This document shows, in pieces, positions 13,614 through 23,873 of a stretch of 38,725 nt of DNA. This stretch comes from Clostridia bacterium (GTDB lineage Bacteria; Bacillota; Limnochordia; DTU080; RSA5), in contig PKEX01000027.1 in assembly GCA_002919235.1 (NCBI GenBank), forward strand, positions 1-38,725, read 5' to 3'. The notes below the pieces were generated by a model, which worked only from the letters and a program-made list of their open reading frames with translations, was not told the DNA's origin and did no database searches. Position numbers and translations under genes: made by a program. Position 1 is the first letter of the stretch; every line of letters begins with the position of its first letter.

Positions 13614-13874
13614 GTGAGCGCGGCTTACCTGTGCCCTGTATGCCGGGCCAACCGGCAAGCCTTTGACTTGGTGTACAAGCTGGCGCAGGAGATCCGCAAG
13701 GACCCGGAGACGGGCAAGACGGTCTACCGCTCCGACGAGCTGGAGCTGATGCGCCGGGAGGACGGCCGGCCCGACATCGACGTGAAGTGCCGGCAGTGCG
13801 GGTACGCCGGGGCCGAACAGTCCTTCGTCCGCGCCGCCCGGAGGGACCAGCGCTCAGCCCTCCCGGCCTTCTAG
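13614..13874 (+). CDS. Small zinc-ribbon protein of unknown function
   Basis: The protein has 86 residues. An excellent ribosome site AAAGGAGGGG lies 6 bases before the GTG start. Two Cys pairs, CPVC near the N-terminus and CRQC at about residues 63-66, are 50 residues apart and look like a zinc ribbon holding a charged helical middle part. It is the only plus-strand gene within a long minus-strand block. Its stop overlaps tail-to-tail with that of the deacetylase-acetyltransferase gene (shared CTAG at 13871-13874). I do not recognise a family; a nucleic-acid or protein-binding role is only a guess from the ribbon. Confidence 0.75.
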   Translation: MSAAYLCPVCRANRQAFDLVYKLAQEIRKDPETGKTVYRSDELELMRREDGRPDIDVKCRQCGYAGAEQSFVRAARRDQRSALPAF

Positions 13875-15859
13875 ACCCGCTCTTCCTGCAGGTCCAGGAG
13901 CATGACGGACCAGGCGCCGCCGGAGTCGTGCATGGTGCCCATGGCCTCAAAACCCAGGCTCTGGTAAACCCGGATGGCCGCCTCGTTCCACGGGCGCACC
14001 TCCAGGCGCACCTTGCCGACCCCGTGGGCTGCAAATCGGGCCAGGGCGTGGCGGATGAGCTGGGTGGCGATGCCCCTCCCCCGGTACCCGGGAGCCACCG
14101 CGACCGAGAGGATCCGGGCGTCGGCCGCGAGCTCGCCGGCCACCGCCGACCGGACGAACTGGAGCTTGTCGAGGAAGAGGAGGCGCAAGGGGGTCCAGCC
14201 CAGGCGGAGCCGCCCTCGGAGCCACCCGGCCAGCCACCGCAGGGCGTAGCGCCGGGAGACCGCGGCCCGCCACAGCCGCCGCAACGAGACCGGCGCGCAC
14301 ACGTAGCCCACCACCTTCCCCTCGGCCACCGCCACCATCAGCGCGCCCGGCTCCGCTTCGAAGCAGAGGCGGAACATCTCCTGGATCAAGCGGAGCGGCG
14401 GCGGTTCTTTGAAGAGATGGAGCAGGCTCTCCCGGAAACTTTCCGCGAAGATCGCGGCGCACGGCGCAAGATCCGCCGCCGTCGCGGCGGCGCAGACCAC
14501 GCTGGGAGCGCCCTCCTGCTCCTGCCAGCCGGGCAGGTGGAGGAGGTGGTATCCCGACCGGTCGATCCCGATCCCCCGGGAGCGGGTCTCCACTGCCACG
14601 AACACCTTTCTCGGAAAACCGAGGAGCTCCGCGGGGATGGCCAGTTCCAGCCGGCGGCCCGCGGCCCGCGCCACGACCTCCCGCAGGAGCTCTGGGCGGG
14701 CCCCCGTCACCTCCATCACGCGGTGAGGCGGCTTGAGCCGCAGGACCAGTCGACGGGTGCGGGGGCAGTCCGAAAGGATCACCCGGTACTCGACGTCGCC
14801 TGCCACGCGCCCCGCCATTTCGAGCCGGAGAAAGAGGTGAGCGCGGCCGGCCTGCGCGTAGACGGCGGCGATGTCCCCGGCCCGCTCCACCTGCTTGGTC
14901 ACGGAATCGCCCACCGCATCCAGGATCTGCGGCTTCTGCGGCCACGGCGCGGCCTCGCCTCCGATCAGCGGCTCCGGCTGCTCCCGGCTGCACGGGGGGA
15001 CCTCCCCGTCCTTGCCGACGGCGAACACCTCGCTCCGCCGCACGAAGCTAGTCAAAAAGCGCCCCAGAGGGGGAATCTGGCTGCGGTACATCAGGATGGC
15101 CTGGTACTTGCGGCGAATCTCGGAGGTGGTGCCCACCACTTCCACCCAGCGCTGGCCCAGGCCTGCCAGCGCGGGGGGAGGCTCCAGGGCCTTCCGGGCG
15201 TTGGGACCCCGGGGACTGGGCCAGCCCCCCTTGTGCACCACGTAGTAAAGGCGCCGGCAGCCCTGCATCCAGGAGGCTTCGCCGGCCAGCGCCTCCAAGG
15301 CGTAGGTGACAAAGGCGGAGGCCACCGCGTGATCCCTGTGCGCGTCTTGGGGATGCGGGTAGACGCAGAGGGTGGGCCGCAGCCGGCGCAGCAGCGCGAT
15401 GAGGTCGTCCGCCAGCGCTTCGCCGGCGTGCGGGGCCCGGGGCGTCAGGATCCCGTCGTAGGGCGACGCCTCCTGCAGGGTAAAGGGGGAACGGTACGGT
15501 TTCTCCCGGCTCCAGTGCTGCTCCCACAAGGCGGCCAAGCCCCGGTCGGGATAGCCCAGGAACGTCACGTGCGCCGGGTCGACGCCGATGTGGCCCAGCG
15601 CCCGCAGCGACTCCCGGCGCCGGGTGGCGCCCAGGCTCTCGGTCCGGCGGGTGGCCACCCTTTTCCCCACGGGCGTCGGCCCCGCGTAGCCGAACGCGTC
15701 TCCCAGCGTCAGCAGGACCACGTGAACGCGAGCGCCGGCGGCCAGCGCCTTTTGGATGATGAGCCCCGCCGCGATCAGCTCGTCGTCGGGATGGGGCGCC
15801 ACCACCAGCAGCCGGTCTTCCTTGGAAAGCGCGAGCCGGGGCAGCGAGCGGGCCGTCAC
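13871..15859 (-). CDS. PIG-L/LmbE-type deacetylase fused to a GNAT acetyltransferase
   Basis: The protein has 662 residues in three parts. Residues 1-260 are a PIG-L/LmbE zinc deacetylase with APHPDDE at 21-27 and a second metal motif DAHRDHAVA. The middle (about 300-445) is beta-rich and resembles a CBM9/DOMON-like sandwich (ILDAVGDSVTKQ, then AHLFLRLEMAG); this is a weak assignment. The C-terminus (about 465-662) is a GNAT domain with the acetyl-CoA loop VAPGYRGRGIATQLI and the late motif NEAAIRVYQSLGF. No signal peptide is seen, so it should be cytoplasmic. The GTG start overlaps the tsaC stop by four bases and has GGGGAG 8 bases upstream. PIG-L enzymes remove acetyl from N-acetylglucosaminyl compounds (for example BshB and MshB in thiol synthesis) and GNATs add acetyl, so both steps may act on one aminosugar-type substrate; the substrate is unknown. 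Confidence 0.85.
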   Translation of the reverse strand: MTARSLPRLALSKEDRLLVVAPHPDDELIAAGLIIQKALAAGARVHVVLLTLGDAFGYAGPTPVGKRVATRRTESLGATRRRESLRALGHIGVDPAHVTFLGYPDRGLAALWEQHWSREKPYRSPFTLQEASPYDGILTPRAPHAGEALADDLIALLRRLRPTLCVYPHPQDAHRDHAVASAFVTYALEALAGEASWMQGCRRLYYVVHKGGWPSPRGPNARKALEPPPALAGLGQRWVEVVGTTSEIRRKYQAILMYRSQIPPLGRFLTSFVRRSEVFAVGKDGEVPPCSREQPEPLIGGEAAPWPQKPQILDAVGDSVTKQVERAGDIAAVYAQAGRAHLFLRLEMAGRVAGDVEYRVILSDCPRTRRLVLRLKPPHRVMEVTGARPELLREVVARAAGRRLELAIPAELLGFPRKVFVAVETRSRGIGIDRSGYHLLHLPGWQEQEGAPSVVCAAATAADLAPCAAIFAESFRESLLHLFKEPPPLRLIQEMFRLCFEAEPGALMVAVAEGKVVGYVCAPVSLRRLWRAAVSRRYALRWLAGWLRGRLRLGWTPLRLLFLDKLQFVRSAVAGELAADARILSVAVAPGYRGRGIATQLIRHALARFAAHGVGKVRLEVRPWNEAAIRVYQSLGFEAMGTMHDSGGAWSVMLLDLQEERV

Positions 15860-16956
15860 GGAGCCGTCTCCCCGCCTCCGCCGGCGGCTTCAAAGCCGCG
15901 CTGCGCCAAGGCGCCGGCGTCCATCTCCCTTCCTCCCGCGGCCCTCCGCATGCGGTCCATCAGCGCCCGGCCGATGCCGGCTTCGGGGTACGCTTCCATG
16001 ACGATCAGCTCGACTCCGGGAAGGTCGACCTCCCGCAGCCCGCGGTACAGCCGGCGGGCCGCCTCTTCGGGCCGCTCCCGCCCGCCCAGGAGGAAAAGCC
16101 GCTCCGGCCGCCGCGCGAGCCGGGCCGCCGTCTCGTCCGAGAGGAGAAACGCAGCCCGGGACGGGCCGGCTCCCGTCTCGAGCACTTGGTTGATCGCCCG
16201 CGCGATCTCCCCGGGGCTGCCGCGGACCACCACCGCCCGGGCCCGGGGAGCGTAGTGCCGGTACTTGAGACCGGGCGAGCGAGGCGCTTCCCCGGCGGCG
16301 GGCACCGCCTCCCGCACCGGGCCGATGACCGCCTCCAGCTCCTCGCGGCTCACCCCGCCCGGCCGCAGGACCACGGGGGGCGTCACCGTCACGTCGATGA
16401 CGGTCGACTCCACGCCCACCCCGGTCTCGCCGCCGTCCAGCACGCCGTCGATCCGGCCCTCGAGGTCTTCCAGCACGTGCTCCGCCCGGGTGGGGCTGGG
16501 TCTTCCCGACAGGTTGGCGCTGGGCGCGGCCACGGGAACGCCCGCCGCCTCCAGCAAGGCCAGGGCCACCGGATGGGCGGGGATCCGGACCGCAACCGTG
16601 GGCAGCCCGGCCGTGGTCTCCCGCGGCACCGCAGGGTCGGCCTCCACGACCAGGGTGAGTGGCCCGGGCCAGAACGCTTCCGCCAGGCGGACGGCCGCTT
16701 CGGGAAGCGCCCGTGCGAGGGCAAAGGCTTCCTCCGGGCAGCGGGTGTGGACGATGAGGGGGTTGTCGGCCGGGCGGCCCTTGGCGGCAAAGACGGCCCG
16801 CACCGCGGCGGGATCCAGGGCGTGGGCCCCCAGGCCGTACACCGTCTCGGTGGGAAATGCCAAGAGCCCGCCGCGGCGCAGCACCATGGCGGCCTCTTCG
16901 ATGACACCGGGATCGGGACAGGCAGGATCCACCCGCAGGAGCCTCGTCCGGATCAT
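15856..16956 (-). CDS. tsaC: L-threonylcarbamoyladenylate synthase (TsaC/Sua5, long form)
   Basis: The protein has 366 residues and makes threonylcarbamoyl-AMP for the t6A37 modification of ANN-decoding tRNAs. The YrdC domain (residues 10-215) shows FPTETVYGLGAHALD, the KGRP substrate motif and PSANLSGRPSPT. A linker with GLKYRHYAPRA leads to the C-terminal Sua5 domain (about 240-345). The C-terminal tail is Gly/Glu-rich. AAGGAG lies 9 bases before the ATG, 6 bases after prmC. The position next to prmC and prfA is classical; B. subtilis calls it ywlC. Confidence 0.94.
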   Translation of the reverse strand: MIRTRLLRVDPACPDPGVIEEAAMVLRRGGLLAFPTETVYGLGAHALDPAAVRAVFAAKGRPADNPLIVHTRCPEEAFALARALPEAAVRLAEAFWPGPLTLVVEADPAVPRETTAGLPTVAVRIPAHPVALALLEAAGVPVAAPSANLSGRPSPTRAEHVLEDLEGRIDGVLDGGETGVGVESTVIDVTVTPPVVLRPGGVSREELEAVIGPVREAVPAAGEAPRSPGLKYRHYAPRARAVVVRGSPGEIARAINQVLETGAGPSRAAFLLSDETAARLARRPERLFLLGGRERPEEAARRLYRGLREVDLPGVELIVMEAYPEAGIGRALMDRMRRAAGGREMDAGALAQRGFEAAGGGGETAP

Positions 16957-19029: not shown

Positions 19030-19932
19030 CTATGGAACGATCAGGCGCGACTCGGGCGCCGCCTTGCCGTCGGCCAGCAGGACGGCCCGCAGCGACTGGA
19101 TGGCCACTTCGATCTGCTCGTCGTCGGGCTCGCGCGTCGTCAGCCTCTGGGTCCACATGCCCGGCCGCGAGAGGACGTCGATGATCCACGGGCTGTCCTT
19201 GCGGCCCGCGAGCCGGATCAGCTCGTACGAGATCCCCGCCACCACCGGCAGGAGGGCCAGGTGCAGGAGGACTCGCTGCAGAAACGGCGGCCTTCCGAAA
19301 AAGCTGAAGACGAAAATGCTCACCAGCAGGACAAAGATGATGAAGCTGGTGCCGCACCGCTTGTGGATCAGGCTGTGCGAACGGACCGCCTCCACGGTGA
19401 GCGGATCGCCCGCCTCATAGCAGTTGATGGCCTTGTGCTCCGCCCCGTGGTATTGAAAGACCCGGCGGATGTCCTTCATCAACGAGATGGCCGCGACGTA
19501 CGCCAGGAAGAAGGCGATCTTGATCAGCCCTTCCACCGTGTTGAGCAGCACGTTGCTGGCGATGTACCCCTGGATCTGCCGGATGACGAACGCGGGCAGC
19601 ACGATGAAGAGGCCCACGGTGAGCAGGAGCGAAAGAGCCAGGGTCAGCGCGATCTCTTTGGGGCCCAGCTGCTCCTCTTCTTCGCCGGCGAACTGGCTCG
19701 CCGAGTAGTTGAGCGCCCGGATGCCCAGCACCAGCGCCTCCACCAGCGCGACGCTGCCCCGGATCAGCGGCCGTTTCAAAATGGGAAAGCGCTCCGTCAC
19801 GGACGAGATCTTCTCCTCTTTGGTCACGATCTCGCCGCTGGGCTTGCGCACGGCGATGGCAAGGCTCGTCTGCCCCCGCATCATCACGCCTTCGATGACG
19901 GCCTGGCCGCCGTAGTAGAAGCTCTCCGCCAC
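19030..19932 (-). CDS. DUF1385 (YqhQ-type) membrane protein
   Basis: The protein has about 300 residues. The start carries YYGGQAVIEGVMMRG, the hallmark of this family. Four to five hydrophobic helices (about residues 90-245) surround the conserved HGAEHKAINCYEAG motif, whose His and Glu residues suggest a metal site; biochemical function is unknown. The likely start is the GTG at 19932, with GAGGGG 8 bases upstream; a GTG three codons earlier is too close to that site. Genes of this family often lie beside prfA in Bacillota, as here. Confidence 0.88.
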   Translation of the reverse strand: MAESFYYGGQAVIEGVMMRGQTSLAIAVRKPSGEIVTKEEKISSVTERFPILKRPLIRGSVALVEALVLGIRALNYSASQFAGEEEEQLGPKEIALTLALSLLLTVGLFIVLPAFVIRQIQGYIASNVLLNTVEGLIKIAFFLAYVAAISLMKDIRRVFQYHGAEHKAINCYEAGDPLTVEAVRSHSLIHKRCGTSFIIFVLLVSIFVFSFFGRPPFLQRVLLHLALLPVVAGISYELIRLAGRKDSPWIIDVLSRPGMWTQRLTTREPDDEQIEVAIQSLRAVLLADGKAAPESRLIVP

Positions 19933-19960
19933 CCTTTTCACCCCTCGAGCTGACCCTTTT

Positions 19961-23786: not shown

Positions 23787-23873
23787 GCCGAAGTGGTGGA
23801 ACTGGCAGACGCGCTGCGTTCAGGGCGCAGTGGGCAACCGCCCGTGTGGGTTCGAATCCCACCTTCGGCACCA
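23787..23873 (+). tRNA. tRNA-Leu (anticodon CAG)
   Basis: The gene is 87 bases long. The acceptor stem GCCGAAG pairs with CTTCGGC and is followed by discriminator A and an encoded CCA. The anticodon stem CTGCG/CGCAG frames the loop TTCAGGG with CAG at 23821-23823, which reads CUG. The T arm has GTGGG-TTCGAAT-CCCAC. The long variable arm is as expected for a class II leucine tRNA. It stands alone with its own promoter and terminator. Confidence 0.97.

Follow-up and report, generated by a model that had tools for sequence, protein, structure and literature searches.

Pairs of genetically linked deacetylases and N-acyltransferases that act on amino sugars are already known. In the biosynthesis of teicoplanin and A40926, the PIG-L enzymes Tei2 (Orf2*) and Dbv21 remove the acetyl group from GlcNAc, and the acyltransferases Tei11 and Dbv8 re-acylate the amine (PMC8987122). 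In rhizobia, the CE4 deacetylase NodB exposes an amine that is acylated by the N-acyltransferase NodA (PMC5080398), and the CE4 deacetylase HfsH and the GNAT-fold acyltransferase HfsK of Caulobacter have been proposed to work on one exopolysaccharide (PMC5362036). The metal site and the general base of LmbE (PIG-L) enzymes follow an H-x-D1-D2 plus H rule (PMC4101496). The new element described here is the single-chain form, in which a PIG-L and a GNAT domain are parts of one polypeptide. No PIG-L/GNAT protein or fusion was found described in the open literature, to which the search was confined.

The window, i.e., the whole stretch of 38,725 nucleotides analysed, encodes this protein of 662 aa in a frame with a GTG start (Table 1). 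The upstream neighbour is TsaC by TIGR00057, and the four-base overlap between the two genes, pointed out in the initial annotation, is present. A small convergent gene overlaps the end of the fusion; its product is kept beside the fusion or the PIG-L gene in families f1, f2 and f9 and matches no family above cut-off. Further along the window lie a conserved protein adjoining prfA (19030–19941, minus strand) with no NCBIfam match, of which a Bipolaricaulota MAG has a homologue (47%; L010, 9570–10382) next to a PIG-L gene, and a tRNA-Leu (CAG) gene (23787–23873, plus strand). A second PIG-L match in the window's genome (C27, 17489–17797) is interrupted by an in-frame stop and may be a decayed gene.

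Table 1. Features of the fusion gene and its immediate neighbours in the window
Feature	Coordinates	Strand	Basis
PIG-L/beta-sandwich/GNAT fusion gene	13871..15859	-	ORF, Pfam, conservation in G001 and G004, AlphaFold2
PIG-L (LmbE, CE14-type) de-N-acetylase domain, residues 1-281	15017..15859	-	Pfam PF02585, PDB folds, no membrane segment
APHPDDE, residues 21-27; H23 and D26 as predicted zinc ligands, D25 as general base	15779..15799	-	invariant in 16 relatives; rule of PMC4101496
HRDH, residues 174-177; predicted third zinc ligand H177, invariant D176	15329..15340	-	alignment; rule of PMC4101496
Beta-sandwich domain, residues about 297-445	14525..14971	-	structure prediction; occurs with PIG-L elsewhere
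GNAT domain, residues about 455-660 (~205 residues)	13880..14497	-	Pfam PF00583; profile A2 orthologous group
RGRGIA acetyl-CoA loop, residues 593-598	14066..14083	-	sequence motif
tsaC/sua5, upstream coupled gene	15856..16956	-	TIGR00057, E = 4.9e-63
GTGA, tsaC stop overlapping fusion start	15856..15859	-	sequence
86-aa CxxC...CxxC protein, convergent, sharing 4 bases with the end of the fusion	13614..13874	+	ORF; weak rubredoxin-like matches only

The zinc site of PIG-L/LmbE type and the GNAT acetyl-CoA loop had both been reported as intact, and both descriptions hold. Residues 18–187 match PF02585 (E = 1.2e-26, 94.1 bits versus a gathering score of 28.2), and the APHPDDE and HRDH motifs fit the rule for LmbE enzymes, with ligands and base invariant in 16 relatives. 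Judged from this score and the metal site, the first domain is a member of the PIG-L/LmbE superfamily. At the other end, residues 581–637 match PF00583 (E = 1.9e-18, 67.3 bits versus a gathering score of 20.7), and the loop satisfies the R/Q-x-x-G-x-G/A pattern of the GNAT superfamily. By score, loop and PDB folds, the C-terminal domain is a member of this superfamily, and Pfam, the AlphaFold2 model and the fold matches agree on a GNAT fold for the last ~200 residues, a point on which the initial annotation had made its reading depend. The dN/dS ratios of the three domains (0.19, 0.21 and 0.30) place all of them under purifying selection.

The AlphaFold2 model, obtained with a 37-row alignment, has a pLDDT of 91.7 and a pTM of 0.91 and delimits three domains. 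The best PDB folds in a Foldseek search with the PIG-L domain are MshB, chitobiose deacetylases, Orf2* and BshB, and the GNAT part matches various GNATs, including ArsN and PAT. The 50 best Foldseek matches to the fusion are, going by length, all too short to cover every domain. The middle domain had been described as a carbohydrate-binding-like beta sandwich; the sandwich is borne out by the model, while the carbohydrate-binding part finds no backing. Taken alone, this domain resembles generic Ig/Fn3 sandwiches only, with no PDB match at E ≤ 1e-3, no Pfam match in 17 homologues and a single match in a profile search (E = 1.2). Neither sequence nor fold places the domain in a CBM family, and that candidate was rejected; the label of a carbohydrate-binding module is not supported. 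The sandwich goes with PIG-L, since relatives from Sulfobacillus, Caldisericota and Omnitrophota combine the two with no orthologous GNAT; on this distribution, it is best regarded as an accessory domain at the C-terminus of PIG-L proteins of this subfamily. The PIG-L–sandwich gene of Sulfobacillus and related MAGs (L006, L007, L016 and L022) is flanked by a biotin-carboxyl-carrier-like gene and by one that by eye resembles an M55 D-aminopeptidase gene.

A single-sequence search of 60 genomes of relatives with the fusion protein answered the suggestion that conservation of the fusion be surveyed. The complete fusion is found in G001, of the same family as the window's genome G000 (64% identity), and in G004, of the same order (38%), and is thus conserved across three genera of one order. 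In G031 and G043 of family f9, tsaC is followed by a PIG-L–sandwich gene and then by the GNAT gene in another frame, the latter two overlapping by 4 bases. A sequencing artefact joining two genes is ruled out because the frame is open in three genera and the two parts occur as overlapping genes in another family. A third f9 genome, G012, has the PIG-L–sandwich gene in the same place after tsaC and lacks the GNAT, and in G013 and G060 the GNAT stands alone after tsaC. Since relatives hold only the GNAT at that position, the PIG-L gene appears to be the newcomer, and in the simplest reading it entered between tsaC and the GNAT gene and was fused later. In the GNAT tree, the three fusions group together (support 90/61) within a clade that also contains f9 and f95. 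The VRPxNxxAxxLY motif usual in these GNATs is gone from those of f9; their dN/dS of 0.14 argues against decay.

A candidate reading of the GNAT as the RimI partner of TsaC was dropped: the fusion scores 57.1 bits with the RimI model TIGR01575, below the cut-off of 86.4, and the window's genome has further RimI-like GNATs. Another link to threonylcarbamoyl-tRNA genes is seen in G330, where the GNAT (L210, 2710–3330) lies between genes resembling tsaE–tsaB and tsaD.

The orthologous group of the GNAT was defined by full-length matches to a profile of this domain (A2). Matches occur, one copy per genome, in 40 of the 73 genomes of the class and in 45 of 398 genomes sampled from the phylum. Within the class, a wide score gap separates the orthologues from generic GNATs (2e-52 versus 3e-18), and no match in the phylum is weaker than 2e-44. 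Within the class, a CE4 (NodB-type) polysaccharide deacetylase is encoded immediately upstream of the GNAT, on the same strand, in 33 of these 40 genomes; outside it, the GNAT likewise directly follows a CE4 gene in 24 of the 37 genomes that have one. The CE4 partners match PF01522 with E-values of 1e-35 to 1e-40 and have intact catalytic residues (TFDDGP, HxxxH, RPPRG and HDSG motifs). In family f51 (G107 and G400), the GNAT gene is followed by an overlapping gene for a membrane-anchored PIG-L–sandwich protein, the reverse of the order in f9. Across the 77 GNAT-bearing genomes, the gene follows CE4 in 57, is fused or adjacent to PIG-L in 7 and stands alone in 12; these pairing counts and the co-occurrence counts below cover 76 genomes, G267 being left out. 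Deacetylase and N-acyltransferase are adjacent or fused in 64 of the 76, and fusion or adjacency of the GNAT with a deacetylase of one of the two folds spans 24 families of the phylum. An apparent CE4–GNAT fusion in G405 was discounted, as it stems from a stretch of N in the assembled sequence. In the window's genome itself, a CE4 gene of the GNAT-partner type adjoins spoIVA (TIGR02836, 779 bits; L234, 4910–5812 and 6371–7849). Pairing with a GNAT is not a general trait of PIG-L proteins, because only 1 of 80 PIG-L loci outside the phylum has a GNAT neighbour. In that locus, from an Omnitrophota MAG (L005, 4733–6821), the PIG-L–sandwich gene overlaps a gene for another sort of GNAT, which scores 27 bits with the GNAT profile.

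The CE4 type that partners the GNAT was told from other CE4 deacetylases by a score gap. Partner-type CE4 is missing from G004, G031, G043, G148, G330, G107, G400 and seven f98 genomes, and every one of these GNAT-bearing genomes has a PIG-L–sandwich protein. Altogether, 58 of the 76 genomes have CE4 only, 14 PIG-L–sandwich only, 4 both (G000, G001, G209 and G216) and none neither; in all 12 with a stand-alone GNAT, a deacetylase of one of these two types is encoded at another locus. The near-exclusion of the two deacetylases gives a Fisher p of 4.5e-12 over the 76 genomes. Phylogenetically independent contrasts number no more than four among them, and all four agree in direction (sign test p = 0.125). 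A simple replacement of CE4 by PIG-L is too simple, given the four genomes that keep both. The presence of the GNAT is associated with that of a deacetylase (p = 3e-10). Among the 33 class genomes without the GNAT, 21 have neither deacetylase and 12 have one (CE4 in 11, PIG-L–sandwich in G012), the PIG-L count outside G012 coming from a single-sequence search that did not cover G061–G072 and could miss a divergent copy. The dependence is one-way: the GNAT needs a deacetylase and not the reverse. Such a pattern is expected where the amine supplied by the deacetylase is the substrate of the GNAT; models of salvage or protection would fit it as well.

Membrane segments were assigned by a simple hydropathy count, a crude method. 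None was found in the PIG-L proteins of the window, f2 and f9; the anchored PIG-L proteins of f98, f51 and G330 have one N-terminal segment after a basic stretch, and most CE4 partners have two or more. Given the positive-inside rule and the basic residues that precede the segment, the catalytic domains of the anchored deacetylases are predicted to lie outside. This predicted external topology of the unfused deacetylases, away from acyl-CoA, is the main difficulty for a scheme of deacetylation followed by acylation in those genomes. The substrate may be lipid-linked and flip, or the GNAT may act before export or in salvage. Several CE4 partners (L207, L213, L216 and L220) have an N-terminal domain similar to the glycerol-3-phosphate acyltransferase PlsY (PF02660, up to 43.7 bits), and in a Clostridiales MAG a DedA-type VTT domain forms part of the PIG-L–sandwich chain (L018, 7128–9245). 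Both are no more than hints at lipid carriers.

We propose, with the chances evenly poised, that the fusion works in the cytosol as a two-step enzyme on a single amino-sugar substrate belonging to the cell envelope, and that it is the fused form of a recurrent partnership. The substrate would be an envelope amino sugar, such as a glycan precursor, a glycolipid or its fragment. The PIG-L domain, with the beta sandwich as an accessory, would hydrolyse the N-acetyl group to a free amine, to which the GNAT domain would then transfer an acyl group from acyl-CoA, so that the N-acyl group is exchanged or restored. The fusion would be the cis-linked form of a phylum-wide partnership of the GNAT with either a CE4 or a PIG-L–sandwich deacetylase. 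The shared substrate molecule, the acyl donor, the order of steps and the envelope role are parts that we infer; no gene cluster points to what the substrate is. The partnership is supported by the fusion in three genera, the 4-base-overlapping genes of G031 and G043, the second overlap in f51, the adjacency of CE4 and GNAT inside and outside the class, the presence of a deacetylase in all 76 genomes, the near-exclusion of the two deacetylase types, the purifying selection on all three domains and the known pairs named at the outset. Against it stand the predicted external topology of the unfused deacetylases, G012, which keeps the PIG-L–sandwich gene without the GNAT, the CE4 gene kept elsewhere in G000 and G001, the motif loss in the f9 GNATs and the small number of independent contrasts.

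By analogy, the fusion would work like the Tei2/Tei11, NodB/NodA and HfsH/HfsK pairs, and by the models tested it is a member of none. The chemistry of Tei2/Tei11 is the same as proposed here and Orf2* is a fold match of the PIG-L domain, but those enzymes are separate, belong to antibiotic clusters and act on a glycopeptide, whereas the fusion is one chain beside tsaC with no antibiotic cluster. NodB/NodA share a CE4 deacetylase with the unfused relatives of the fusion; however, the CE4 partners score about 134–158 bits against a NodB cut-off of 240, no NodA model appears among the GNAT matches and no chitin synthase was seen. HfsK differs in having tandem GNAT domains and in binding c-di-GMP, whereas a single GNAT domain is present here. 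PdaB/PgdA-type CE4 enzymes are the closest named models for the CE4 partners, which nevertheless fall below all equivalog cut-offs and have membrane segments or the PlsY-like domain.

Formylation by ArnA, reversed by ArnD, follows a protect-then-deprotect logic, and the GNAT might likewise acetylate an amino sugar in the cytoplasm for transfer or export, with the deacetylase removing the acetyl group later. That order suits the unfused forms, with the GNAT inside and the deacetylase predicted outside the membrane, and the hints at lipid carriers agree with it. For the window, f2 and f9 proteins, whose PIG-L part lacks membrane segments and is either fused to the GNAT or co-produced with it, the two reactions would run against each other as a futile cycle in the same compartment; we consider this order unlikely. 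The same compartments would fit salvage, in which the GNAT re-acetylates de-N-acetylated wall or glycan fragments produced by the deacetylase, so that they return to GlcNAc metabolism. The one-way dependence agrees with this, and the GNAT gene of G148 adjoins a LysM–GH18 gene. A fused cytosolic deacetylase would, however, work against salvage, and none of the genes seen beside the pair is a recycling gene, which leaves this reading unlikely.

Two independent enzymes might also have come into one frame through loss of a stop between overlapping genes, without a shared substrate. The separate overlapping genes in f9, the place of the PIG-L gene at a site where other genomes have only the GNAT, and the GNAT dropped in G012 all point that way. 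Such an accident is quite unlikely in view of the fusion or adjacency with deacetylases of two folds in 24 families, the co-occurrence with a deacetylase in all 76 genomes checked and the second PIG-L pairing in f51. The initial annotation had looked to MshB and MshD of mycothiol synthesis and BshB of bacillithiol synthesis. The PIG-L fold and zinc site are shared, the fold being closest to MshB, and the mycothiol pathway also includes a GNAT. Yet the fusion scores far below the cut-offs of the equivalog models for BshB1 (TIGR04001; 45.7 versus 182.5 bits), MshB (38.2 versus 224.35) and MshD (29.7 versus 163.1). The proposed search for partner genes found no BshC in the window's genome (99.45% complete by the operators' figure), and the best matches to MshA (164.6 versus 462.5 bits) and MshC (315.2 versus 485.1) fall below cut-off. 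A mycothiol- or bacillithiol-like thiol pathway is very improbable, and both readings were set aside. The core of the earlier suggestion, one pathway for deacetylase and acyltransferase in which the N-acyl group of an amino sugar could be remade, is backed by linkage in 24 families and by co-occurrence; the thiol analogy falls away.

The two-step enzyme proposed above represents ordinary chemistry in an unusual single chain, with a phylum-wide association behind it. A wider version is more tentative and somewhat less probable than an even chance: the fusion would be a single-chain enzyme swapping the N-acyl group on an envelope amino sugar and the cis form of an undescribed editing pathway of the phylum, in which CE4 and PIG-L–sandwich deacetylases are interchangeable partners of one GNAT. 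Since the fusion is soluble, both half-reactions could be assayed on one protein. An uncharacterised single-copy GNAT gains a testable function and a partner, and, if the reading is true, N-acyl editing of an amino sugar would be a common trait in the phylum.
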